Shown here: positions 93 to 10,647 of the stretch, one piece after another
How positions within the stretch are numbered: position 1 is the first letter of the stretch
Layout: each line of letters begins with the position of its first letter
From: Tolumonas auensis DSM 9187
Lineage (GTDB): Bacteria; Pseudomonadota; Gammaproteobacteria; Enterobacterales; Aeromonadaceae
Reading direction: 5' to 3'
NCBI RefSeq assembly: GCF_000023065.1
Contig: NC_012691.1
Coordinates: 2,152,501 to 2,216,500, forward strand
Length of the DNA: 64,000 nt
Translations under genes and position numbers: made by a program
The notes under the pieces: model-generated
The model's database searches: none
Seen by the model: the letters and a program-made list of their open reading frames with translations, nothing else
What the model was told of the DNA's origin: nothing

Positions 93-1004
93 TCATTTTA
101 TTACAACCATACTGTTAGCCATCCGAGCGCCTCCAATAGCACCATTAAATGAAGAGGACGAGGCTTTCATGAAAGTTACTTTTTCATATGGCAATGGTTT
201 CCGTAAATAAGTGGATGTTTTTTTAATTAGTTCTTCGAGAGGAAAATCTACCATATCAATTACCCCTCCTCCCAAAACGGCTACATCTGGATCGAATAAA
301 TTTATACCGGTAGCAATAGCACGAGCACAGTTATCAACAAGCATCTTTATTTCTGGTTCGTCTTTAGCACAGGAAAAAAGTTGGTCTATAGAATATGGTC
401 GTTCCTTACTTTCATACCAACGTCGCAATGCAACACCGGAACAATTGGTCTCCACACACCCCACATTGCCACAACCACATGTAACAGAACTGTCTCCATA
501 GGGAATATGGCCTAATTCACCTGCAACGCCGTGAGCGCCGACAAAAGGAGCTCCGTTGACCCAAATTGAAAAGCCAAAACCTGTACCAAGGTAAAATCCT
601 AGTACCAAACGATGATGTAACTGATGTTCACTTACGTCATAAAAAAGCTGCAAATTTACATCACGTTCAAAGACAACTTTACAACCAAAATGCTGTTCTA
701 ATTTATCAGCCAAACCATTAAATTCTGTTGGCTGACACGGCAAGTTTGGGGTCGATATAACAGTTTTTCTGTCGTTAGATACAGAAGCTGGAAATCCAAC
801 AACGATGCTACTGACATGAGCGTGTTTTTCCACTAGATGGTTGGTTATAAAGCTAATAAGCCCGCTTGATAGTCCATCTTGAACAACTATTGCCGTTTTT
901 TCTTTAATTGTTTCAATAATGTCGCCATTAGAAGCCAATAAACATAGGCGAATATGGGTTGCGCCCATATCAACACCGACTGAAACAGCCAATTTGTTAT
1001 GCAT
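93..1004 (-). CDS. alsK: D-allose kinase AlsK (ROK family)
   Basis: Phosphorylates D-allose to D-allose-6-phosphate in the cytoplasm after ABC-mediated uptake. About 303 residues, close to E. coli AlsK (309). The N-terminal phosphate-binding motif DMGATH (residues 12-17) and the ROK signature with zinc ligands (ELGH at about 163 and CGCGNVGC at about 176-183) are all present. Stretches such as ETNCSGVALRRWYE match my memory of E. coli AlsK closely, which separates it from NagK or Mlc. I chose the ATG at 1004 because a GAGG Shine-Dalgarno lies six bases upstream; in-frame codons further up are less well placed. The start overlaps the 3' end of alsE by eight bases, indicating translational coupling. 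It is the last gene of the operon. Confidence 0.93.
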   Translation of the reverse strand: MHNKLAVSVGVDMGATHIRLCLLASNGDIIETIKEKTAIVVQDGLSSGLISFITNHLVEKHAHVSSIVVGFPASVSNDRKTVISTPNLPCQPTEFNGLADKLEQHFGCKVVFERDVNLQLFYDVSEHQLHHRLVLGFYLGTGFGFSIWVNGAPFVGAHGVAGELGHIPYGDSSVTCGCGNVGCVETNCSGVALRRWYESKERPYSIDQLFSCAKDEPEIKMLVDNCARAIATGINLFDPDVAVLGGGVIDMVDFPLEELIKKTSTYLRKPLPYEKVTFMKASSSSFNGAIGGARMANSMVVIK

Positions 1005-1680
1005 GATGAGCCTCATTTTTGGCAACAATAATCTGATCTTTCATAATAGACCATGCATCTTCCAGAACAGGTGCATTATTGAATAGTCCTGAAGACCCAA
1101 CAATAAACACATCAGCACCAGCTTCGATTAACTGTTTATATGTGTTTTTGTTACATGAACCATCGATTTCAATTTCATAATTTAACTTATTTTCCTCACG
1201 ATATATTTTAAGCTGTTTGATCTTATCTAACATTTCTGGAACGAACGATTGGCCAGCGAAACCAGGATCAACAGTCATCACAGTTATTTTGTCTACCTTA
1301 TGAATATAATACTTAATCATTTCAATTGGTGACTCAGGGTTAAGGATCAGACCAATTTTAACACCAAGATTCTGAATTTTTTCTATCAAGCGAAATGCCT
1401 GGCCTGATAATGTTTCAGGGTGAAGAGTGATAAATCCTGCTCCAGACTGAACCAAAGGTTCAATATAATCCTGTGGATTTGTCACCATCAAATGACAATC
1501 TAATGGTTTTGTTGCTACTCGCTTCACTTGTTGAACAAAAAATGGAGACAGAGTTAGGTTTGGGACAAAATGACCATCCATAATATCGATATGAAAATAA
1601 TCGGCATGTTGGTCAATAAATTCAATTTGTTCTTTAAATTTCAGTAAATCCATGCACATTAAAGAAGGAGAAATTTTCAT
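997..1680 (-). CDS. alsE: D-allulose-6-phosphate 3-epimerase AlsE
   Basis: Converts D-allulose-6-phosphate to D-fructose-6-phosphate, the last step of allose catabolism. The protein is 227 residues and forms a ribulose-phosphate-3-epimerase-type TIM barrel. The metal and catalytic motifs are HIDIMDGHFVP (30-40), MTVDPGFAGQ (about 135-144) and EIDGS (171-175). The N-terminus (ISPSLMCMDLLKFKEQIEF) and the HPET segment resemble E. coli AlsE rather than housekeeping Rpe. It lies eight bases after alsC and overlaps alsK, so it is cotranscribed. A second, divergent epimerase lies at 9167-9826. The assignment as AlsE rests on sequence resemblance plus operon order. Confidence 0.93.
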   Translation of the reverse strand: MKISPSLMCMDLLKFKEQIEFIDQHADYFHIDIMDGHFVPNLTLSPFFVQQVKRVATKPLDCHLMVTNPQDYIEPLVQSGAGFITLHPETLSGQAFRLIEKIQNLGVKIGLILNPESPIEMIKYYIHKVDKITVMTVDPGFAGQSFVPEMLDKIKQLKIYREENKLNYEIEIDGSCNKNTYKQLIEAGADVFIVGSSGLFNNAPVLEDAWSIMKDQIIVAKNEAHHA

Positions 1681-1688
1681 TTTAACCT

Positions 1689-2669
1689 CTACTTGCTAAT
1701 TAATCTGTCTAATGCAACCGCAGCAATAATTAAGCCGCCCATAACAACCAACTGATAATATGTTTGAACCTGAAGAATATTGAGCCCATTGTTAATTGTT
1801 CCAATAATGAGGCCCCCGATAACAACAGAGAAAATTCGTCCTTTACCACCAAAAAAACTTGTTCCACCGATAATTGCACTAGCAATGGCATAGGTTTCAA
1901 ATCCGATACCAGCCAGAGGTTCGGCGGCTCCCAAACGAGCAGTAGAGACAACACCAGCTAAGCCAGCACAAACACCAGAAATAATGAAAACAACTAGTGT
2001 ATAAAATTTAACATCAATACCAGAGAAAAAAGCTGAATTCTTATTTCCACCCAAGGCATAAATGTTTCTGCCTAAGCGGGTTTTGGTTGTTACAAACCAA
2101 AGCAACAAAGCAATAATGATAGAGAAAATAACCGGAACCGGTATTCCTATAAAATCATTAGCAAAGAAGTTTACGAAGTCAAATGAAAATCCATAAACAG
2201 AGTTTGCATCTGATATAACTAATGTGGCTCCACGAAAAATGGCATTAGTTCCTAATGTAATGATGAAAGGATGTAATCCTGTCCAGTTTACTAAACATCC
2301 ATTTATAGCACCAAGAGCACCACCGACAAGAACACCACCAATTAGTGCTGCTAACACAGGATCCATACCCGCTAACATTAATTTAGCAGTAACCATTCCT
2401 GATAGAGCAAGTACAGCACCAACAGATAAATCGATACCAGCAATAAGGATTGCAAAAAACTCTCCCATACCGATTAAAACTGTAACTGAACTCTGAACAA
2501 AAATTTGTGTAATGTTATTTGATGTCAAAAAATATTCGCTCGATATTGCACCGAATATAGAGACAATAAATATTAGTATAAAAAATGTTCCATATTTATC
2601 CCAGAACTGAGAGAAATTAAATTCAGATTTATTCATTTTTGGTACCTCTATTCTTGTGGCAGCGCCCAT
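1689..2669 (-). CDS. alsC: D-allose ABC transporter permease AlsC
   Basis: Inner-membrane permease of the high-affinity allose importer, RbsC/AraH/XylH type, with about ten hydrophobic segments. The family EAA-like loop (IASAIIGGTSFFGGKGRIFSV) lies near the C-terminus. Its 326 residues match my recollection of E. coli AlsC length, and the sequence looks highly conserved. The annotated start overlaps the end of alsA by 22 bases. A second start (ATG at 2636, giving 315 residues) has an AGAGG Shine-Dalgarno eight bases upstream, directly after the alsA stop, so the true start could be there. It works with AlsA (ATPase) and AlsB (binding protein). Confidence 0.92.
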   Translation of the reverse strand: MGAATRIEVPKMNKSEFNFSQFWDKYGTFFILIFIVSIFGAISSEYFLTSNNITQIFVQSSVTVLIGMGEFFAILIAGIDLSVGAVLALSGMVTAKLMLAGMDPVLAALIGGVLVGGALGAINGCLVNWTGLHPFIITLGTNAIFRGATLVISDANSVYGFSFDFVNFFANDFIGIPVPVIFSIIIALLLWFVTTKTRLGRNIYALGGNKNSAFFSGIDVKFYTLVVFIISGVCAGLAGVVSTARLGAAEPLAGIGFETYAIASAIIGGTSFFGGKGRIFSVVIGGLIIGTINNGLNILQVQTYYQLVVMGGLIIAAVALDRLISK

Positions 2670-4177
2670 TTCATTATCTCCTCTTCAGTAACCGTTTCAC
2701 TGTTATCAATTAATTGCGATAAAGAGCCTTCACAAAAAATAGCAATACGATCACATACAGCCATAATTTCAGGCAACTCTGACGAAACCATTAAAATGGT
2801 TTTTCCTTCATCCGCTAATTTTCGCATAACTTTGTAGATTTCTGACTTTGCACCAACATCAATACCTCGCGTTGGCTCATCAAAAATTAGCACCGTAGGA
2901 TCGCAGCACAACCATTTAGATATAATTACCTTTTGTTGATTTCCGCCAGATAATTCATTAATGTTTTGATCAATTGAACTACATTTCAAAGATAATAACT
3001 TTCTTTGTTCTTCTGCAATTTTTCTTTCTGTTTTATGGTCAAAAAGTCCGAGTGAGCCTTTAAATCCACCTAACTTTAAACTATTCGATATAGCCATATT
3101 CTGAGCAATAGAAAAGTTGCCAAAGAATCCATTCTCACGACGACTTTCAGTTATATATCCCATACCTTTTTTCAATGCATCCAAAGGAGAGCTTGGGGTG
3201 ATATCAATACCATTCAATATAACTTTGCCTGTTTTTTTTGGTTCAGCTCCAAAAATACAATTCATGAATTCAGTTCGACCAGAACCTACCAACCCTGCGA
3301 ACCCAAGAATTTCACCTTTATTTACCTGAAATGAAATATTTTTAACTCGTTTATTATCTTTACTGGTTATATTTTGAACTTCAAATATTGGTTTTTGATT
3401 AACCTGTGAAGTTCCTCGTAAACCAGTAAACCTATTTTGAATATCACGACCCACCATCATTTTGATAATATCTTCATTTGATACATCAGCGATAAGTCCA
3501 GAATACACACTGCTACCATCTTTCATTACAGTGTATCGGTCACATATACGTCGTATTTCATTAAGCTTATGTGAGATATAAATTATGGATTTACCTTCTT
3601 TTCTTAACTGATCCATTATCATGAAAAGATATTCAACTTCTTTGTTGGTAAGTGATGAAGTCGGTTCGTCCATTATAATTACTTCAGCGTTTAACATTAA
3701 TGTCTTGGCTATTTCTAACATTTGTTTTTGGCTGATAGAAAGATTGGCAACTTTCTCATTAAGGTCTATTTTTAGTCCAACACGTAATAACATAATAGAA
3801 GCTTTTTTTTGCATCTCATTCCAATCAACGACGTTGATACCAAAGACCTTTTTTATTGGCAGCCTTCCAATGAACATATTTTCTAGAACACTAAGTTCAT
3901 CTATAACGCTTAATTCTTGGTAAATAATCCCGATACCTAATTCAGCAGCAAGTTTATGATCCAGCTTGCTATATTCATGACCAAGTACATTAATTGTTCC
4001 TGCACTAGGTTCATGGATTCCAGAAAGAATTTTCATCAAGGTTGATTTACCAGCACCATTTTCACCCAATAAAGCATGTATCTCATGGCTATATATTTCT
4101 AAATCGACTGATTTTAGCGCCTGAACAGGACCGAAATATTTAGCAATCTTTTCCATTTTTATATATGGCTTGGTCAT
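2648..4177 (-). CDS. alsA: D-allose ABC transporter ATP-binding protein AlsA
   Basis: Cytoplasmic ATPase energising allose import; 509 residues, with two ABC domains in tandem as in RbsA/MglA-type sugar ATPases. The N-terminal domain has Walker A GENGAGKS (38-45), a degenerate signature LSISQKQM, and Walker B VIIMDEPTSS. The C-terminal domain has a degenerate Walker A (GLVGSGRTE), the signature LSGGNQQKV and Walker B VLIFDEPTRGID. Such asymmetric active sites are normal in this family. It lies 79 bases downstream of alsB with a stable hairpin between (4194-4226), a layout that usually keeps binding-protein mRNA more abundant than transporter mRNA. Confidence 0.93.
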   Translation of the reverse strand: MTKPYIKMEKIAKYFGPVQALKSVDLEIYSHEIHALLGENGAGKSTLMKILSGIHEPSAGTINVLGHEYSKLDHKLAAELGIGIIYQELSVIDELSVLENMFIGRLPIKKVFGINVVDWNEMQKKASIMLLRVGLKIDLNEKVANLSISQKQMLEIAKTLMLNAEVIIMDEPTSSLTNKEVEYLFMIMDQLRKEGKSIIYISHKLNEIRRICDRYTVMKDGSSVYSGLIADVSNEDIIKMMVGRDIQNRFTGLRGTSQVNQKPIFEVQNITSKDNKRVKNISFQVNKGEILGFAGLVGSGRTEFMNCIFGAEPKKTGKVILNGIDITPSSPLDALKKGMGYITESRRENGFFGNFSIAQNMAISNSLKLGGFKGSLGLFDHKTERKIAEEQRKLLSLKCSSIDQNINELSGGNQQKVIISKWLCCDPTVLIFDEPTRGIDVGAKSEIYKVMRKLADEGKTILMVSSELPEIMAVCDRIAIFCEGSLSQLIDNSETVTEEEIMKWALPQE

Positions 4178-4193
4178 ACCTGTCTCCAGCCTT

Positions 4194-4226
4194 AAATTGA
4201 GACAGAAATTAATTCCGTCTCAATTT
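4194..4226 (-). promoter_or_regulatory. Intercistronic hairpin between alsB and alsA
   Basis: Ten-base perfect inverted repeat (4194-4203 with 4217-4226) whose loop can pair further. It lies 30 bases after the alsB stop and before alsA. No T run follows on the minus strand, so it is more likely a processing or stabilising element than a full terminator. In binding-protein-dependent transport operons such hairpins commonly raise the level of the periplasmic protein relative to the membrane components. That role is inferred here. Confidence 0.5.
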
Positions 4227-4256
4227 TTAATAAAGGAGTTATAAACAACTAAGTGA

Positions 4257-5189
4257 TTATTTAGTTACTAATACAGAATCAACAAGTTCAAATTTAGGCT
4301 CAGAACCAAGAGGGATAATTTTCCCTGATTTAACAGAATCGACTAATAAATCTAATCCCTTTGCACCAATTTCTGCTGGATTTTGAGCGACTGTAGCAGT
4401 CATTGAACCTTCTGAAACCATTTTACGAGCCTCAGGGATACCATCTGTACCAACTACAAGTATTTTTCCTTTTTTACCTGCATTTGTGACTGCTTGTGCC
4501 ACACCCATAGCCATTGTGTCATTAGCACAATAGAAAGCTTTTATATCTGGATTACGTTGGAGCACGTTAGTTGCAACATCAAGAGCCTTGATGCGGTCCC
4601 AATCAGCAGGTTGGCTTGCCACTAATTTCACGGATTTCTGACTTAAAAATACACTTGTTGCACCATTTTTTCTTGCTTCACCTGAAGCATTTCCCGCCTT
4701 ACCTTCAATAATGGCAACATCACCACCAGTAGCGCCTAATGTGTCAACAATAAATTGTGCTCCACGGGCACCAACAGCGACATTATCTGTGGTAATAAAA
4801 GCCTCAACATTACCTTTGGCTTTAGCTAGGTTATCCATATCTACTTTTTCATCGAGATTCACTAAATGGATACCTTTTTGATAGGCTTTAGCTGCCGGTA
4901 CAACAAGATTGGCTGCTGATAACGGTGCAAATGCGATACCTTTGTAGTTTTTGTTAGTCAAATCTTCAAATAGCTGTAATTGGGCCTGAAAATCCCCTTC
5001 CGATGATGTTGCAAATACATCCACACTAACACCTAGAGTTTTAGCTTCTTGTTCAATACCAGCTTTCATATCAACCCAGAAAGGATTCGATAGTGTTTTT
5101 AAAATAACCGCGTAATCAGCTGCGTGCGCTGCACTCGACAGCATTAGGCCACATGTAGTAGCAGCAACAACTTTCAGTAACTTATGCAT
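4257..5189 (-). CDS. alsB: Periplasmic D-allose-binding protein AlsB
   Basis: Periplasmic receptor of the allose ABC importer, Peripla_BP_4/ribose-binding family. 310 residues including a Sec signal peptide (residues 1-23, cleavage after AHA). Segments such as LKTLSNPFWVDM, IIEGKAGNASGEARKNGA, CANDTMAMGVAQAV and DGIPEARKM follow E. coli AlsB (311 residues) nearly word for word. The start at 5189 has a TGGAG Shine-Dalgarno eight bases upstream. It is the first transporter gene of the rpiR-alsBACEK block. The 576-base region upstream contains palindromes and a CRP-like site. Allose is the most likely ligand, although binding proteins of this family can also take ribose or allulose. Confidence 0.94.
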   Translation of the reverse strand: MHKLLKVVAATTCGLMLSSAAHAADYAVILKTLSNPFWVDMKAGIEQEAKTLGVSVDVFATSSEGDFQAQLQLFEDLTNKNYKGIAFAPLSAANLVVPAAKAYQKGIHLVNLDEKVDMDNLAKAKGNVEAFITTDNVAVGARGAQFIVDTLGATGGDVAIIEGKAGNASGEARKNGATSVFLSQKSVKLVASQPADWDRIKALDVATNVLQRNPDIKAFYCANDTMAMGVAQAVTNAGKKGKILVVGTDGIPEARKMVSEGSMTATVAQNPAEIGAKGLDLLVDSVKSGKIIPLGSEPKFELVDSVLVTK

Positions 5190-5334
5190 GGTGTATCTCC
5201 AGAGGTTTCATTTCAGTTGTACTTGACGTTTAGGACGTCCTGGAATTCCTTTAACAAGACAGCAATGGAACTCAATAAGTTCACACAATTAAATCTATCA
5301 GTAAAGTTTACTAACGACAATTATCTCGCGAGAT

Positions 5335-5344
5335 CAACTTCACA
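5335..5344 (-). promoter_or_regulatory. Shared als-locus motif TGTGAAGTTG (alsB copy)
   Basis: The 10-mer TGTGAAGTTG (minus strand) occurs here, next to a 12-base palindrome at 5323-5334, and is repeated exactly upstream of rpiB at 10338-10347. A related TTGTGAA inverted pair precedes the PTS gene. A common operator for the locus regulator, presumably RpiR, is the simplest reading, but this is inference. Confidence 0.35.
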
Positions 5345-5598
5345 TATTTAATTAAAACCGTAAAGAAACCGAGCCGACGTCAAAAGGCGGATTCTAAAGG
5401 GGCTTTTTTTATGGGTTTATTAGATTAAATAGCGCAATTCATGCATTTAAGAAGGGTGTAGTGCGGATAGTGAGTAAGTGATATTGGTTTTATAACTTGG
5501 CAAGCCATTTATGTGGCAGCGCAGTATCTTCACAATATGAGAGTTCAATGTAAACAAATTAAAGAAAGATGAAGTAAATTAGCTAATCTGCATATATC

Positions 5599-5614
5599 TG
5601 AGATATAGATCACA
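5599..5614. promoter_or_regulatory. Candidate CRP-binding site upstream of alsB
   Basis: TGAGA-TATAGA-TCACA matches the CRP consensus (TGTGA-N6-TCACA) at nine of ten core positions with the correct six-base spacer. It lies about 410 bases upstream of the alsB start, which is far but possible given the long leader region. Catabolite control of a rare-sugar operon would be expected. The distance lowers confidence. Confidence 0.3.
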
Positions 5615-5765
5615 AACTAGCTATGAAAAGAAAAAGGCATTTGCTCGAATGAGCATATTTTGAGGTGCGTAAAAACAAGGTAAATCCAAACGAAGCTTAA
5701 ATTACGACATTAATTATGACTAATTTGGGCTATTAGTTCTAAAAACGTCTGAGGCCGATGTATAG

Positions 5766-6644
5766 TTAATCAACACTGCCTTTCCCATGTAGATGCCGAA
5801 CAACTCTTGAACCACGAGTGAGCTTTTCACGATTTTTATCGTGATCTTGTAATAGGATCGCGATAAATAAAACATCTAAAAGATTGAGCTGTACTATGCG
5901 AGCAACAGCATTTTGACCAAGTAATATCCCTCCTTTGGCAGGACTGAATATTGCGTAATCAGCTAGTTGTGCCAAGGCAGATGTATCATTATTAGTAATG
6001 CATATTACTCGTGAGTGTCTTTGTTTTGCGTTTTCTACAGCTTTAAGCAATTCTCTTGTATCACCAGATTGAGATATAACAACAATAACGTCATTTTCAT
6101 CCAGCTGACTTGACACCATAAGCATCATATGGAAATCACTGTAGGCTCTACTTAGAATACCAATACGAAGTAGTTTATGTTCAAAGTCCTGGCAAACAGC
6201 AGCAGAACCTCCAACACCGAAGATAACAACATTCTTTGCATTAAAAATTAGTTGAGCTGCATTTGCTATCAGGATCGGATCGGCAACGGATCTAGCTTCT
6301 TTCATTGCTTGAATTGAATTGGCAAATACCTTGTTCAATACAGATTCAACGCTGTCAGTTGGTTCAATTTCTTGTTCACTGTCAATTGGCAATGAACTCA
6401 GATATTCGACTAACGCTTGTCGTAACTCACGAAATCCAGCAAATCCCAACTTCTTGGATAATTTGACTATTAGTGGTTCTGAAACCTCAAGTTGCTCAGC
6501 GACAGATTTTATGCTGGTCTTACTCTCTACATTCCCTTTGGCTAAGAGCCATTCAGCAATTTGACGCTCGGTGTTACTGAGCCCTGGCAATGCCATGCGA
6601 ATTTTCGCGCCTGTAGCTAATGCATCGAGATTAGTATCTATCAT
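5766..6644 (-). CDS. rpiR: RpiR/AlsR-type sugar-phosphate-responsive regulator
   Basis: 292-residue transcriptional regulator with an N-terminal HTH_6 domain (about 1-75, IKSVAEQLEVSEPLIVKLSKKLGFAGFRELRQAL) and a C-terminal SIS sugar-phosphate-binding domain (about 120-260, with VVIFGVGGSAAV and VISQSGDTREL). E. coli RpiR (AlsR) represses alsBACEK and rpiB and has the same architecture, about 296 residues and similar segments. Here it lies between the PTS block and alsB, all on the minus strand, with a strong terminator upstream (6737-6770) that forces it to use its own promoter. The probable effector is allose or allulose phosphate, by analogy. Confidence 0.88.
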   Translation of the reverse strand: MIDTNLDALATGAKIRMALPGLSNTERQIAEWLLAKGNVESKTSIKSVAEQLEVSEPLIVKLSKKLGFAGFRELRQALVEYLSSLPIDSEQEIEPTDSVESVLNKVFANSIQAMKEARSVADPILIANAAQLIFNAKNVVIFGVGGSAAVCQDFEHKLLRIGILSRAYSDFHMMLMVSSQLDENDVIVVISQSGDTRELLKAVENAKQRHSRVICITNNDTSALAQLADYAIFSPAKGGILLGQNAVARIVQLNLLDVLFIAILLQDHDKNREKLTRGSRVVRHLHGKGSVD

Positions 6645-6736
6645 CTAAATTTCTGCTCAATGTGTAGTTTTGTATCTGTTAGATAGTATATCTTTAAATT
6701 CATCCATGAATATTAAATTTAGTGGCCATAGGTATC

Positions 6737-6770
6737 AAAAAAAGCAGACCTGTGATCACAAGTCTGCCTT
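6737..6770 (-). terminator. Strong intrinsic terminator after the PTS gene
   Basis: Near-perfect 24-base palindrome (6744-6767) followed on the minus strand by seven Ts. It starts about 12 bases after the PTS stop codon at 6779, so it separates the rpiB-epimerase-DUF4867-PTS transcript from the rpiR-als block. The centre of the stem contains TGTGATCACA. Confidence 0.85.
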
Positions 6771-6778
6771 CAGATGGA

Positions 6779-8371
6779 TTAAGCTGGGTCTAATCCTAAG
6801 TCCAAATAATCCTCTAATCTGGATTTGATATTACTGACATGCGGTCCGTATATAACCTGAACACCGTTGCCTTTAATTATCACTCCTTTTGCTCCGGTTT
6901 CCTTCAGTGATTGCTCATTAACTAAACTTGAATTTGACACGGTGATTCGTAATCTCGTAGCACAACAGTCCAAGTCACTGATATTGTTTTTTCCACCTAA
7001 AGCATAAATGATTGAAGCTGATGTTTCTTCTTTGGAATTATTTCTTTCTTCGACATCTTTTCTTGTATACAACTTGACATCATCGACATTATCTTCTCGG
7101 CCAGGCGTCTTGTATTGGAATTTTTTAATTAATCCACTGAAAGCAAAGTAGTATAGCGGGAACAGAGGCAATCCAATAAAAATTGCATTTAGCCAACTAG
7201 TTTTATGCTCCCCTTGTAAAACACCAAACAGAATGAAATCAATTAAACTACCGGAGAATGTTTGGCCCACACCAACATTGAACATATGGCAGAGCATAAA
7301 TGACATGCCAGCAATTAAACAATGGAGAACATATAATAATGGTGCTGCAAACAAGAATGAAAACTCAATTGGTTCAGTGATACCTGTAAGGATAGCAGTT
7401 AAAGTTGCAGATAATAATAAACCCAAGACTTTACTTCTATTTTCAGGTTTAGCTGTCCGGTATAAAGCCAGAGCGGCACCAGGAATCCCAAATAAATAAA
7501 ATGGAAATTTACCGGCCATGAATCGTGTTGCTTCTACAGAGAAGTGATCAACGTTATGACTTGCCAATTCGGCAAAAAATATATTCTGAGCACCAGATAC
7601 TGATACGCCATCAATGATTTCTGTACCACCTAAACCTGTTTGCCAGAATGGCATATAGAATACATGGTGTAGTCCAAAAGGAATTAGTGCTCGCTCTGTA
7701 AATCCATATAAAAACGTACCAGCATAACCAGATTTGTTTACCAAATCACCAAGCATCAGGATCCCATGCTGAATAACAGGCCATATGAAAAACATGGCAA
7801 TACCAACAAAGAGATAACTTATTGCGGTAATGATTGGGATGAATCTTGTGCCCCCGAAAAATGAGAATATTGCAGGTAATTCAATTTGATAAAATTTATT
7901 ATGCAGTATTGAAACACCCAGTCCAACAATAACGCCACCAAATACACCCATCTGAAGAGACTGTATACCGATAGTCGAACCGATAGAACCTTCAGGCAAG
8001 GCTCCTGGGATTAGTAGGCCATTTAGATCCAGCATTGCATTGATTGTTGCATGCATAATGAAATAACCAATAGCAGCAGCAATAGCAGCTACATCCTTCT
8101 CTTTCTTTGCCATACCCATTGCAACACCTACGGCAAACAGAATAGGCAAATTTGAGAATATAATACTGCCTGCACTTTTCATTACAGTAAGTAATGAGTG
8201 CAACACAGTTCCGTTCCCAAGAATGCCTTCTAAACCATACGCAGCTATATTAGTTGCATTAGTAAATGAAGCTCCAAAACCTAACATTAATCCAGCTACA
8301 GGTAGTAATGCAATAGGCAGCATAAATGATCTGCCAACCCTTTGCATTATACTAAAAAACGAATTTTGCAT
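6779..8371 (-). CDS. PTS EIICB sugar transporter, probable allose/allulose PTS
   Basis: Phosphotransferase permease of the glucose/glucoside family; imports and phosphorylates a sugar at the inner membrane. 530 residues: an EIIC membrane domain (about 1-410, starting MQNSFFSIMQRVGRSFMLPI as in PtsG/MalX proteins), a linker, and an EIIB domain (about 455-530) with the phosphorylatable Cys in DLDCCATRLR (469-470). No EIIA is present or adjacent, so a free EIIA-Glc (Crr) is presumably used. The start at 8371 is supported by AAGGGGG six bases upstream. Co-occurrence with rpiB, a hexulose-6-P epimerase and a DUF4867-like gene points to allose or allulose as substrate. MalX-like glucose/maltose transport cannot be excluded from sequence. 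Confidence 0.85.
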   Translation of the reverse strand: MQNSFFSIMQRVGRSFMLPIALLPVAGLMLGFGASFTNATNIAAYGLEGILGNGTVLHSLLTVMKSAGSIIFSNLPILFAVGVAMGMAKKEKDVAAIAAAIGYFIMHATINAMLDLNGLLIPGALPEGSIGSTIGIQSLQMGVFGGVIVGLGVSILHNKFYQIELPAIFSFFGGTRFIPIITAISYLFVGIAMFFIWPVIQHGILMLGDLVNKSGYAGTFLYGFTERALIPFGLHHVFYMPFWQTGLGGTEIIDGVSVSGAQNIFFAELASHNVDHFSVEATRFMAGKFPFYLFGIPGAALALYRTAKPENRSKVLGLLLSATLTAILTGITEPIEFSFLFAAPLLYVLHCLIAGMSFMLCHMFNVGVGQTFSGSLIDFILFGVLQGEHKTSWLNAIFIGLPLFPLYYFAFSGLIKKFQYKTPGREDNVDDVKLYTRKDVEERNNSKEETSASIIYALGGKNNISDLDCCATRLRITVSNSSLVNEQSLKETGAKGVIIKGNGVQVIYGPHVSNIKSRLEDYLDLGLDPA

Positions 8372-8382
8372 GTAGTTCCCCC

Positions 8383-8402
8383 TTGTGAAGAATAATTCAC
8401 AA
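8383..8402. promoter_or_regulatory. TTGTGAA inverted repeat before the PTS gene
   Basis: Seven-base arms TTGTGAA and TTCACAA flank a six-base AT spacer, immediately upstream of and touching the PTS Shine-Dalgarno. The half-site matches the repeats upstream of rpiB. The spacing (eight between TGTGA and TCACA) does not fit CRP. It could be an operator, or an mRNA hairpin modulating access to the ribosome-binding site. Confidence 0.4.
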
Positions 8403-8496
8403 TAAATATAAGTAGTATGTTTAATTCTCAAACTAAATTTAGCGATTAGTGTAACTTATTGCAGAACGAAAAATCATTACCAGAAAAAATATAATA

Positions 8497-9156
8497 TTAT
8501 ATGTTAATTGTTATTACCCCCCCCAACAACCCTGGGAATGCACCATTCTTGATTTTATCTTTTTCAGATGCATGAGCAATAAACCATTTATTTTTCTTGA
8601 TTAGAGTTTTTTGTTTGTCATTTTCATTCAATAATGAATTAGTTCCATCAGGCAATACTACTATTGCTAAAAATGGATCTTGGGATGTTTTACATGGCGT
8701 ATAATGCAACGTTGTACTATATAACTCTACTGCTTGACCAGCATTGACAAAAAACACATCAGCTTTTTCTGACAAATATATATCATCAACTAAGTCTTGT
8801 TTTTTCCCTAAGATCAACACAAGGTTAGTAATCGCAACAATCGTTTCACTCCCCTGATGATATTCAAATCCAGTTAGTGAGTGATTATGGCCGGTTACAT
8901 AACCGGCCTGAATTGACAACTCACCATAAACTTTACTTTTTATATCTTGTATTGCTTTAAACTTATAAAGATCTGGAAAATTTGGCGTGTATAAATTACC
9001 AGAAGATGGAGTCTGAATATTTTCCAAAGAAAATTTAACTAGATCAGCAAAATCATCCCCATCCAATACTGAACCATAACATTTAAACTTATCATCTAAT
9101 ACTGATACGATATTTAGATTTTCATTAAAAGATTGCAATGTATTAAGTAAGTTCAT
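8497..9156 (-). CDS. DUF4867-like cupin-type protein of unknown function
   Basis: 219-residue soluble protein without signal peptide. Its central segment (about 85-150) has the spacing of a cupin-like metal site: GYVTGHNHSLTGFEYHQGSE followed by a predicted beta-rich stretch ending in DVFFVNAGQAVELY. I recognise this as resembling the DUF4867 family, seen mainly in Firmicutes sugar gene clusters; the match is from memory. It lies 10 bases after the epimerase stop and 125 bases before the PTS gene, in the same orientation. A role in allose/allulose handling, for example as an isomerase or mutarotase, is inferred from context only. The start at 9156 has an AGGA box. Confidence 0.65.
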   Translation of the reverse strand: MNLLNTLQSFNENLNIVSVLDDKFKCYGSVLDGDDFADLVKFSLENIQTPSSGNLYTPNFPDLYKFKAIQDIKSKVYGELSIQAGYVTGHNHSLTGFEYHQGSETIVAITNLVLILGKKQDLVDDIYLSEKADVFFVNAGQAVELYSTTLHYTPCKTSQDPFLAIVVLPDGTNSLLNENDKQKTLIKKNKWFIAHASEKDKIKNGAFPGLLGGVITINI

Positions 9157-9166
9157 GGCGGTCCTA

Positions 9167-9826
9167 TTAGATCGTTGAGTTCTTCAAGATATTAATGTTT
9201 TTGGCATAGTCAAAACCATCTCTGAATACTCCCGCTGTACCAACAACAAAATATTCAGCGCCAGCGGCATAAAGAAGTGGAACATTATCTTTATTGATAG
9301 ATCCATCAACCTTTATTTTCACGTTTGGACTATATTTTGTGATCATAGATTTAAGGCGACGAACTTTGTCGATACTTGATGTGATGAAACTTTGTCCTGC
9401 AAAACCAGGATCAACTGACATGATCAAAACATAATCAATATCATTAATAATTTCATCAAGAACAGTCAACGGTGTCCCTGGATTGATAGCAACTCCAGCC
9501 AGTTTTCCTGCTTGTTTGATTTTCATGATAGTCCGGTGAAGATGAGTACATGCTTCTACATGGACATAGATAATTTTTGCGTCTGTGGCAGCAAAACGTT
9601 CAATATATTGGTCTGGTTCATTGACCATTAAATGTAAATCGAATGGGATAGTTGCCAATTTTGCAATAGCTTTAATATCCTCAAAGCCCATTGCAAAGTT
9701 TGGTACAAAATGACCATCCATTACATCAATATGGAATAAATCTGCACCAGCAGCTTCAAGAGCGATGATCTCTTCACGTAACTTAGTGAAATCAGCACAC
9801 ATCATAGAGGGACAAATATTAATCAT
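9167..9826 (-). CDS. Second hexulose-phosphate 3-epimerase (Rpe/AlsE family)
   Basis: 219-residue TIM-barrel epimerase related to ribulose-5-phosphate 3-epimerase and AlsE. The motifs FHIDVMDGHFVPNFAMG, LHLMV, MSVDPGFAGQSF and IKVDGSI carry the conserved His and Asp metal and catalytic residues. It is clearly different from the AlsE at 997-1680 and retains the general Rpe sequence pattern. The ATG at 9826 overlaps the rpiB stop (ATGA) and has AAGGTG eight bases upstream; an in-frame TTG two codons earlier is less likely. Given its coupling to rpiB and the PTS, it probably converts allulose-6-P to fructose-6-P, but a pentose-phosphate role cannot be excluded. Confidence 0.85.
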   Translation of the reverse strand: MINICPSMMCADFTKLREEIIALEAAGADLFHIDVMDGHFVPNFAMGFEDIKAIAKLATIPFDLHLMVNEPDQYIERFAATDAKIIYVHVEACTHLHRTIMKIKQAGKLAGVAINPGTPLTVLDEIINDIDYVLIMSVDPGFAGQSFITSSIDKVRRLKSMITKYSPNVKIKVDGSINKDNVPLLYAAGAEYFVVGTAGVFRDGFDYAKNINILKNSTI

Positions 9827-10290
9827 GAACAAGCACCTTCTGCTACATCTTGAAGTTTTTCTATTTCAGCAATCTTATTGACACGGATTTGATGACGATC
9901 GCCTTCATATTGTCCCGCCAACCAACAGTCAACTATCATCTTGGCTAGCTCAATGCCTACAACTCTTGCTCCAAATGCGAGTACATTCGTATTGTTATGT
10001 TGTCTCGAAAGCTGAGCTGAGTATGGCTCGCTGCACACTACCGCACGAATACCATTAACTTTATTTGCTGCAATTGAAATTCCTACACCAGTGCCGCAAA
10101 TCAAAATCCCTTTCTCGAATGCACCTTGATTCACAGCATTAGCTACAGCTAAAGCATAATCAGGATAATCAACGCGATCCGTTGTGTAAGGTCCAAAGTC
10201 GGTACATTCGATACCTTTTTCTGCTAAATAGGCCATGATTTCACATTTCATTTCATAGCCTACATGGTCACTTCCAAATGCAATTTTCAT
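9823..10290 (-). CDS. rpiB: Ribose-5-phosphate/allose-6-phosphate isomerase RpiB
   Basis: 155-residue RpiB/LacAB-family isomerase. The substrate-binding SDH (7-9) and the catalytic Cys65 in ICGTGVGISIAANK are present, as are SRQHNNTNVLAFGARV and the C-terminal RV motif. RpiB enzymes interconvert ribose-5-P and ribulose-5-P, and many also convert allose-6-P to allulose-6-P, the step needed here. In E. coli rpiB is transcribed divergently from rpiR-als; here it heads a co-directional operon with an epimerase, a DUF4867-like gene and a PTS permease. The start at 10290 is preceded by AGGTG. Confidence 0.92.
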   Translation of the reverse strand: MKIAFGSDHVGYEMKCEIMAYLAEKGIECTDFGPYTTDRVDYPDYALAVANAVNQGAFEKGILICGTGVGISIAANKVNGIRAVVCSEPYSAQLSRQHNNTNVLAFGARVVGIELAKMIVDCWLAGQYEGDRHQIRVNKIAEIEKLQDVAEGACS

Positions 10291-10337: not shown

Positions 10338-10361
10338 CAACTTCACAATAACACTTCACAA
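10338..10361 (-). promoter_or_regulatory. Direct TTGTGAAGT repeats upstream of rpiB
   Basis: Two nine-base direct repeats (10340-10348 and 10353-10361) 13 bases apart, one extended to the 10-mer shared with the alsB upstream region. They lie 50-71 bases before the rpiB start, a position typical of an operator or promoter. They are not arranged as a CRP palindrome. Confidence 0.4.
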
Positions 10362-10371
10362 CGAAAAGAAA

Positions 10372-10563
10372 AAGCATGAAGTTTTGATGTGACAAACAAG
10401 CTTAAAAAAAATAACACATTGAATAATAGGATTTTTTTTAAAAAAAAGGCTCAACCAAGCCCAATGCAACACCTAACACTAATAATTAATTTCATAAAAA
10501 CGTGATCTTCAACACAAAACAACGAGGGGTATACGTTTGTATATAGAATAAAACTTCATGCTT
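10372..10563. repeat. 14-base inverted repeat pair upstream of rpiB
   Basis: AAGCATGAAGTTTT at 10372-10385 recurs as its exact reverse complement at 10550-10563, 164 bases apart. The arrangement suits two operators bound by one regulator with DNA looping, as SIS-domain tetramers could do, but binding is not shown by sequence. Confidence 0.5.
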
Positions 10564-10647
10564 ATTGATTTCCACGTGAAGAATTGCTGTGTTAATGGTT
10601 CGCTTTTCAGAGGGGTATGATCAGATGTAGCAGGTAGGTCTAGTTCT

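Follow-up and report, generated by a model that had tools for sequence, protein, structure and literature searches.

Do two sugar uptake systems that lie side by side in one locus serve the same sugar or two different ones? The question is raised by a locus of the freshwater bacterium Tolumonas auensis DSM 9187, found at positions 93–10290 of a stretch of 64,000 nucleotides (the window; positions 2,152,501 to 2,216,500 of NC_012691.1) of a genome that consists of one contig of 3,471,292 bp. The locus comprises ten genes, all open reading frames on the minus strand, with coordinates as in the original prediction (Table 1). In the order of transcription they are rpiB, a gene of a second 3-epimerase (epi2), a DUF4867 gene, the gene of the EIICB component of a phosphotransferase system (PTS), the gene of an RpiR-type regulator, and alsB, alsA, alsC, alsE and alsK, which confirms that two uptake systems, a PTS and an ATP-binding cassette (ABC) transporter, are present in a single locus. 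Our analysis suggests, with a probability of about 0.7, that they form one D-allose regulon, in which both entry routes have RpiB and a repressor in common. The gene content, the shared operators, the kinship of the regulator and the lack of a second close RpiB are read from the sequence; what we infer concerns the substrates, the inducer, the direction in which the regulator acts and what the DUF4867 protein does.

The two blocks and their probable common isomerase

The alsBACEK block strongly resembles the operon of E. coli K-12 (alsRBACEK): each of the five products scored above its NCBIfam allose cut-off, the order is identical, the identities are 55–88%, and in the tree the window AlsE sits within the als-operon clade, unlike the regulator of the locus. 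In E. coli K-12, rpiB is located divergently beside alsR, whose product is of a different clade from the window regulator, whereas in the window rpiB is the first gene of the PTS operon, 3.2 kb away. The K-12 als locus has no operator of the type described below, no PTS, no second epimerase and no DUF4867; the window locus has all four. Among 338 genomes of the family of Escherichia, 24 AlsR proteins were found above the cut-off, all encoded next to alsB, and rpiB was found within a flank of about 1.5 kb in 22 of 24 als loci.

The rpiB product is predicted to convert allose-6-phosphate to allulose-6-phosphate. Two other relatives of RpiB/LacAB are encoded at other loci of the genome, one next to transketolase and transaldolase genes and the other next to fructose PTS genes (neighbours named by eye from translations). 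At 46% and 42% identity to the window rpiB product they are poor candidates for allose-6-phosphate, so that the als block probably relies on rpiB of the PTS operon. The two routes, originally considered complete, are therefore not both so: the only close RpiB is encoded in the PTS operon, and the als block lacks one.

The PTS block is related to a four-gene cassette of enterobacteria, RpiR-EIICB-rpiB-rpe. In a sample of 295 genomes from the family of Escherichia, seven had an EIICB 74–76% identical to that of the window, and the four-gene cassette was present in all seven; three further EIICB cassettes were found by the regulator search, and RpiR-EIICB-rpiB-epimerase was complete in all ten chromosomal loci examined. 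Among plasmid records, EIICB had eight matches at 73.8%, and the two plasmids examined (conjugative and non-mobilizable by typing) carry a divergent SIS regulator gene followed by EIICB, rpiB and rpe. On the conjugative-typed Citrobacter braakii plasmid pKAM621_2 the cassette (L131:10718–14779) has insertion sequence (IS) elements on both sides. All four genes of the cassette have orthologs in the window (identities of 74–76% for EIICB, 65% for rpiB, 63% for the regulator and 57% for the epimerase), the epimerase falls with that of the cassette (93/90, not starred), and both systems have paired operators. In the cassette the regulator gene is divergent from the PTS gene with the paired operators between them, whereas in the window it is located 3’ of the PTS gene and the operators precede rpiB and alsB. 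Neither DUF4867 nor an als operon was found in the examined stretches of the enterobacterial EIICB cassettes. More distant EIICB relatives, at 50–56%, mostly adjoin nanE (8 of the 13 loci examined, out of 48), so that the EIICB cassette is, judged by its neighbours, a distinct subfamily. The listings from literature searches, not all papers of which were read, gave no description of the RpiR-EIICB-rpiB-rpe cassette.

The translation of the window EIICB shows the motifs CxTRLR and GITEP, which we take to be the EIIB site and an EIIC motif, respectively; no full-length equivalog cut-off of NCBIfam was reached. The genome encodes one EIIA of the glucose type, elsewhere than in this locus.

The second epimerase, epi2, is predicted to be the allulose-6-phosphate 3-epimerase of the PTS cassette. 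Its active-site loops are PSMMC, GFAGQ and GTAGVF, and those of AlsE enzymes are SLMC, GFAGQ/GYAGQ and G[ST]SGLF, the common patterns being PSxMC, GFAGQ and G[TS][AS]G[VL]F. In E. coli Rpe, in the housekeeping Rpe of Tolumonas (gene at 2855529, 85% identical to E. coli Rpe) and in the five best-matching chains of solved Rpe structures, the first two loops are SIL[SA] and GFGGQ, and the third has a one-residue deletion wherever it is covered by the alignment, which excludes 2fli. The rpe product of Listeria seeligeri, encoded in an rpe-rpiB-DUF4867 set, shares the first two AlsE-like loops.

Table 1. Features of the locus and of its upstream region, in window coordinates
Feature	Position	Strand	Evidence
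alsK, allose kinase	93..1004	-	435.9 bits, cut-off 253; 55% to E. coli K-12
alsE, allulose-6-P 3-epimerase	997..1680	-	398 bits, cut-off 271; 74% to E. coli K-12
alsC, ABC permease	1689..2669	-	622.3 bits, cut-off 396; 88% to E. coli K-12
alsA, ABC ATPase	2648..4177	-	953.1 bits, cut-off 772; 71% to E. coli K-12
alsB, allose-binding protein	4257..5189	-	573.7 bits, NCBIfam equivalog cut-off 335; 77% to E. coli K-12
Operator (predicted) before alsB, pair member	5278..5307		matrix 14.5; pattern with 3 mismatches
Operator (predicted) before alsB, second of pair	5337..5366		matrix 20.4
Weaker operator-like site between regulator and alsB	5527..5556		matrix 13.8; alone within 11-kb null range
RpiR/SIS regulator, PTS-cassette type, first in als operon	5766..6644	-	447.6 bits, AlsR cut-off 400
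Intrinsic terminator, 3’ of PTS gene	6740..6771	-	14-bp stem then U run, -21.5 kcal/mol, z -3.9
PTS EIICB, glucose/maltose family	6779..8431	-	PF02378, PF00367; likely ATG start at 8371
DUF4867 protein, metal cupin	8497..9156	-	PF16161, 237.2 bits, cut-off 28.7
epi2, second 3-epimerase	9167..9832	-	rpe 257.3 bits, cut-off 212.6; 57% to plasmid cassette rpe
rpiB	9823..10290	-	TIGR01120 213 bits, cut-off 138.65; 68% to E. coli RpiB
Operator (predicted) before rpiB	10353..10382		matrix 20.8, highest in the window; a weaker overlapping site from 10340
Second operator (predicted) before rpiB	10553..10582		matrix 17.7; 200 bp from first (201 in the sister genome, L024)

The regulator and its predicted operators

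The regulator passes the AlsR hidden Markov model (HMM) but is not an ortholog of AlsR. It is 63% identical to the regulator of the plasmid cassette and 43% to E. coli AlsR. In the regulator tree, a branch (99/100) separates the 20 als regulators from all others, and the pair from the two Tolumonas genomes groups with the regulators of the cassettes (92/92, not starred), while the approximately unbiased (AU) test rejected a tree in which the window regulator was held with the 20 als-operon regulators (p-AU 0.0036). By these comparisons the window regulator is of the cassette type and not an E. coli AlsR. Hence the expectation of an E. coli-type rpiR-alsBACEK operon is borne out by the order and the scores of alsBACEK and fails for the regulator, which falls outside the AlsR group of such operons.

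Cassette-type regulators were found 13 times in the 338 genomes, at 357–397 bits: ten accompany EIICB-rpiB-rpe, one (L191:3710–10139) has rpiB-rpe-DUF7916 together with a different PTS and an OprB porin, one has just rpiB, and one stands alone. Sixteen weaker places represent a third type of regulator (two were examined).

The intergenic regions of the cassettes carry an inverted repeat, ACTTCACA-N14-TGTGAAGT. With at most three mismatches this pattern matches the window three times (5278, 5337 and 10353), versus 0.19 matches expected. An operator matrix was trained on ten cassette intergenic regions and on no als or Tolumonas sequences; TGTGAAGT had been seen by eye in Tolumonas before the matrix was built. 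Six positions in the 64 kb score at least 13: three precede alsB and the other three rpiB, where those at 10340 and 10353 overlap. The two highest-scoring sites (20.8 and 20.4) and, barely, the third one (17.7) exceed 17.5, the maximum in 200 simulated 11-kb sequences. The site at 10353 is also present in a sister Tolumonas genome (locus L024, position 5896). Operators are paired at distances of 59–61 bp in 11 of 13 cassette intergenic regions, which include near-duplicate loci (L144/L145 and L141/L195), and a pair with cassette-like spacing, 59 bp in the window, precedes alsB in both Tolumonas genomes.

Of 24 als loci, 12 likewise have a single site scoring at least 13 ahead of rpiB. This was counted against the simple story that the operator had been imported whole from the cassette, an explanation which is thereby weakened; what is cassette-like is the alsB pair and its spacing. 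The same observation suggests that AlsR and the cassette regulators read related operators, an argument for a sugar signal common to both. We dismissed CRP as a candidate binder, because the half-sites are everted relative to the CRP consensus.

Distribution of the blocks and the probable role of DUF4867

An E. coli-type als operon together with the PTS block was found in two of 75 Aeromonadaceae genomes, the source genome (G000) counted, and the same two Tolumonas genomes, G000 and G373, are the only ones of the 75 with DUF4867. Across 369 sampled genomes of the class, DUF4867 matches at E 0.001 were likewise limited to two, G000 and one below the cut-off. In the sister genome G373 (locus L024) the two blocks are convergent and 3 kb apart, with the regulator gene first in the als operon; since the gene order differs, the blocks are separate units that have been kept together. 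A gene of a GH3-like glycosidase (L024:9559–11607; below all NCBIfam cut-offs), located between them, might serve to release sugar from glycosides. The DUF4867 proteins of the two genomes are 72% identical, versus 92–96% for their operon neighbours.

AlsE was found above the cut-off in four of the 75 genomes (G000, G373, G371 and G376). In G371 and G376, which were left out of the count of E. coli-type operons, and in a second copy of G373, it is part of another operon. A distinct operon of three Tolumonas relatives (L121:4983–17970, L122 and L123:4622–17663) has a DeoR gene, a sugar ABC transporter with two permeases and relatives of AlsE and AlsK (above NCBIfam cut-offs in L123), and, as read in L121 and L123, also PfkB and FGGY kinases, transaldolase and transketolase.

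The PTS block had also been likened to the allose cassette of Listeria. In L. monocytogenes, lmo0734–lmo0739, with an epimerase, rpiB and a PTS, is reported to give growth on D-allose (PMC5893763). According to the same source, lmo0734–0736 were required for growth on allose in a recombinant strain, lmo0737 and lmo0738 affected its rate (0.106 and 0.108 versus 0.149–0.150 optical density units per hour), and the other carbohydrates described there were used alike; induction by D-allose was confirmed elsewhere (PMC11323731). The likeness consists of the epimerase, rpiB and a PTS, whereas the LacI regulator, the PTS, described as beta-glucoside type (PMC5893763), and the GH1 protein have no counterpart among the ten window proteins. 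DUF7916 may be the identity of lmo0737, which was assigned to the TIM-barrel superfamily (PMC5893763). Plasmids pLIS4 and pLIS5 of L. seeligeri carry LacI and rpe-rpiB-DUF4867, with DUF4867 following rpe-rpiB, and in the rpiB tree the window gene groups with those of the L. seeligeri plasmid and Lachnoclostridium (95/90), apart from the enterobacterial cassette. Thus the proposed likeness to Listeria holds for this gene set and for rpiB; for the PTS, the regulator and the epimerase the enterobacterial cassette is nearest.

The DUF4867 protein of the window, the sole copy in the genome, belongs to its family both by the PF16161 score and by a 2His-2Glu metal site. It aligns with 9GYY (E 2e-46), and E98, H100, E104 and H151 match the metal ligands, numbered for the solved protein as in PMC11968277. 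With SftX/SqvB of sulfoquinovose pathways (9GYY, 9GYZ) it shares the Pfam family and all four ligands; their pathway is that of a sulfosugar, whereas the pathway of the window protein would be that of an allose-type phosphate sugar. Mutarotation tests with sulfosugars, as reported for the solved protein, found no activity, and a ring-isomerase role in ketose metabolism was proposed there (PMC11968277); ring opening was proposed for a DUF4867 protein as well (PMC9594981).

DUF4867 matches were found in 76 of 391 genomes from the class of the Lachnoclostridium genome (73 above the cut-off) and in 8 of 398 from the class of the Lacticaseibacillus genome, mostly in other contexts. Lachnoclostridium sp. 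UBA5725 (L020:1705–10615), a member of the Clostridia, has an als operon similar to that of E. coli, LacI-alsBACEK-rpiB-LacI-DUF4867, with no PTS. On a Carnobacterium plasmid and in Lacticaseibacillus, DUF4867 is accompanied by genes of the lacABCD type. A frame of 394 amino acids (L074:3706–4890, minus strand) combines DUF4867 (residues 3–206, 251 bits) with an RpiB/LacAB domain (218–353, 160 bits), both above the Pfam cut-offs; in another genome (L086) the two are adjacent separate genes. This fusion, seen in one genome only, is what one would expect of partner proteins; alternatively, a stop codon may have been lost or the assembly may be at fault.

We then considered 87 DUF4867 loci (73 Clostridia places, seven Bacilli places, L020, L021, L023, L024, L126, L127 and L128; several contigs are short, and nine weak Clostridia places below 40 bits were left out). 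An AlsE/Rpe-family protein was found at three of them (L020, L024 and L127); within 6.5 kb, RpiB/LacAB was found at 11, a FucI-like isomerase at 33, and either at 41. DUF4867 as a general marker of allose loci was therefore rejected, AlsE/Rpe being so rare and either isomerase being present at under half of the loci. In the DUF4867 tree, built without L023 and L128, which are short, or L038 and L074, from which a separate reading frame had not been taken, RpiB-linked members form no clade (five label changes), and the window protein, L020, L126, L127 and L021 fall outside the main group with no firm placement. Since DUF4867 is absent from the examined enterobacterial cassettes, it appears not to be essential to the PTS route; it probably helps the isomerase by ring opening or mutarotation.

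In E. coli, a DUF4867 gene is present in 48 of 5426 complete genomes; in strain IAI39 (L129:10006–16037) it is located between thiH and rpoC, beside a ribokinase gene and a cytosine-permease gene annotated as a short piece.

Proposed pathway, alternatives and significance

In the single D-allose regulon that we propose, EIICB, fed by the only glucose-type EIIA, would import and phosphorylate allose at the cost of phosphoenolpyruvate (PEP), while AlsBAC would import it with ATP and AlsK would phosphorylate it. The routes would meet at allose-6-phosphate, RpiB would form allulose-6-phosphate, and AlsE or epi2 would convert the latter to fructose-6-phosphate; the DUF4867 protein would probably assist RpiB through opening or anomerisation of the sugar-phosphate ring. 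The cassette-type repressor would bind the inverted repeats before rpiB and alsB and release them once a pathway sugar phosphate builds up. That both routes lead through these three phosphates, as predicted originally, is very probable, given the common locus in both Tolumonas genomes and the operators of one type.

Several observations weigh against this regulon. The regulator grouping has a support of only 92/92, and the epimerase grouping likewise lacks a starred branch; epi2 itself scores higher with rpe (257.3, cut-off 212.6) than with the AlsE model (208.6, below the cut-off of 271). Sites scoring 13.8–15.1 are within chance for 11 kb, and in L024 the alsB pair scores just 15.0 and 13.6, the plain pattern matching only once, before rpiB. 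Neither the pattern nor the matrix found the operator in the E. coli K-12 als locus, and the cassette-type locus L193 has no site, while locus L207, whose regulator is of the third type, has one scoring 14.7. The expected co-inheritance of the blocks is seen in both Tolumonas genomes having the PTS block and in none of the enterobacteria examined, so in Tolumonas only, and two genomes of one genus may reflect a single acquisition. AlsR scored above the cut-off in none of the ten enterobacterial EIICB-cassette genomes, versus about 0.7 expected from 24 in 338, a check that would miss an als operon under a different regulator. Finally, DUF4867 may not be needed for ring opening, as a ring-opening histidine is ascribed to the RpiB/LacAB enzymes themselves (PMC3755991).

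The two blocks could also divide the labour under one regulator, the PTS importing D-allulose, or a different ketose, and the ABC transporter importing D-allose. We consider this unlikely, although the PTS operon has its own epimerase and two epimerases of different clades have been kept. RpiB would be needless for allulose, and yet rpiB is present in all ten chromosomal and both plasmid EIICB cassettes examined, which makes the separate use of allose and allulose, also suggested originally, less likely; conversely, the als block needs RpiB and has none of its own. The EIICB belongs, moreover, to the glucose/maltose family, whose known members take aldoses. An improbable alternative, in our view, is a pentose such as D-ribose, imported by the PTS as the 5-phosphate and fed by RpiB and the epimerase into the pentose phosphate pathway: the top NCBIfam matches of the two enzymes are indeed rpiB and rpe, and RpiB enzymes also act on ribose-5-phosphate, but the active-site residues of epi2 are of the AlsE and not the Rpe type, a housekeeping rpe is already present, and the regulator gene adjoins alsBACEK, with predicted operators before alsB. 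The Listeria cassette, which encodes both enzymes, affected only D-allose among the carbohydrates whose use was reported (PMC5893763).

The G+C content of the locus, 33–42% in 1-kb steps versus 49% for the genome (49.0% is reported for T. auensis TA4; PMC3236046), indicates that it was probably acquired or assembled by transfer. This would agree with a PTS for another hexose that came to lie beside als by chance, as would the nanE neighbours of the EIICB relatives at 50–56%, a sign that the family changes its substrate. Such an accident is nevertheless very improbable, because operators of one type with conserved spacing are found at both operons in two genomes of differing gene order, and the cassette-type regulator gene is first in the als operon in both.

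Apart from the features discussed, a terminator-like hairpin was found 3’ of alsK (88–56), and an Rfam scan of the window gave no match at the gathering score.

The proposed D-allose regulon thus consists of known parts in a new arrangement, with PTS and ABC entry. A wider proposal, which we would not back at even odds, is that the cassette is a mobile PEP-driven allose PTS of Enterobacteriaceae and plasmids, that its repressor captured als in Tolumonas via paired operators, giving dual-affinity uptake, and that DUF4867 is an anomerase feeding RpiB/LacAB. If true, the anomerase role would explain the place of DUF4867 in lactose/tagatose and sulfoquinovose loci. The locus sets this family, with its solved structure and metal site, beside a known isomerase in a laboratory organism, and it offers allose-6-phosphate and allulose-6-phosphate as substrates to test. 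For allose, a rare sugar that is commercially interesting, the PTS cassette would provide an additional, PEP-driven route, and the predicted operators common to both operons illustrate how an operon can come under the repressor of its neighbour.

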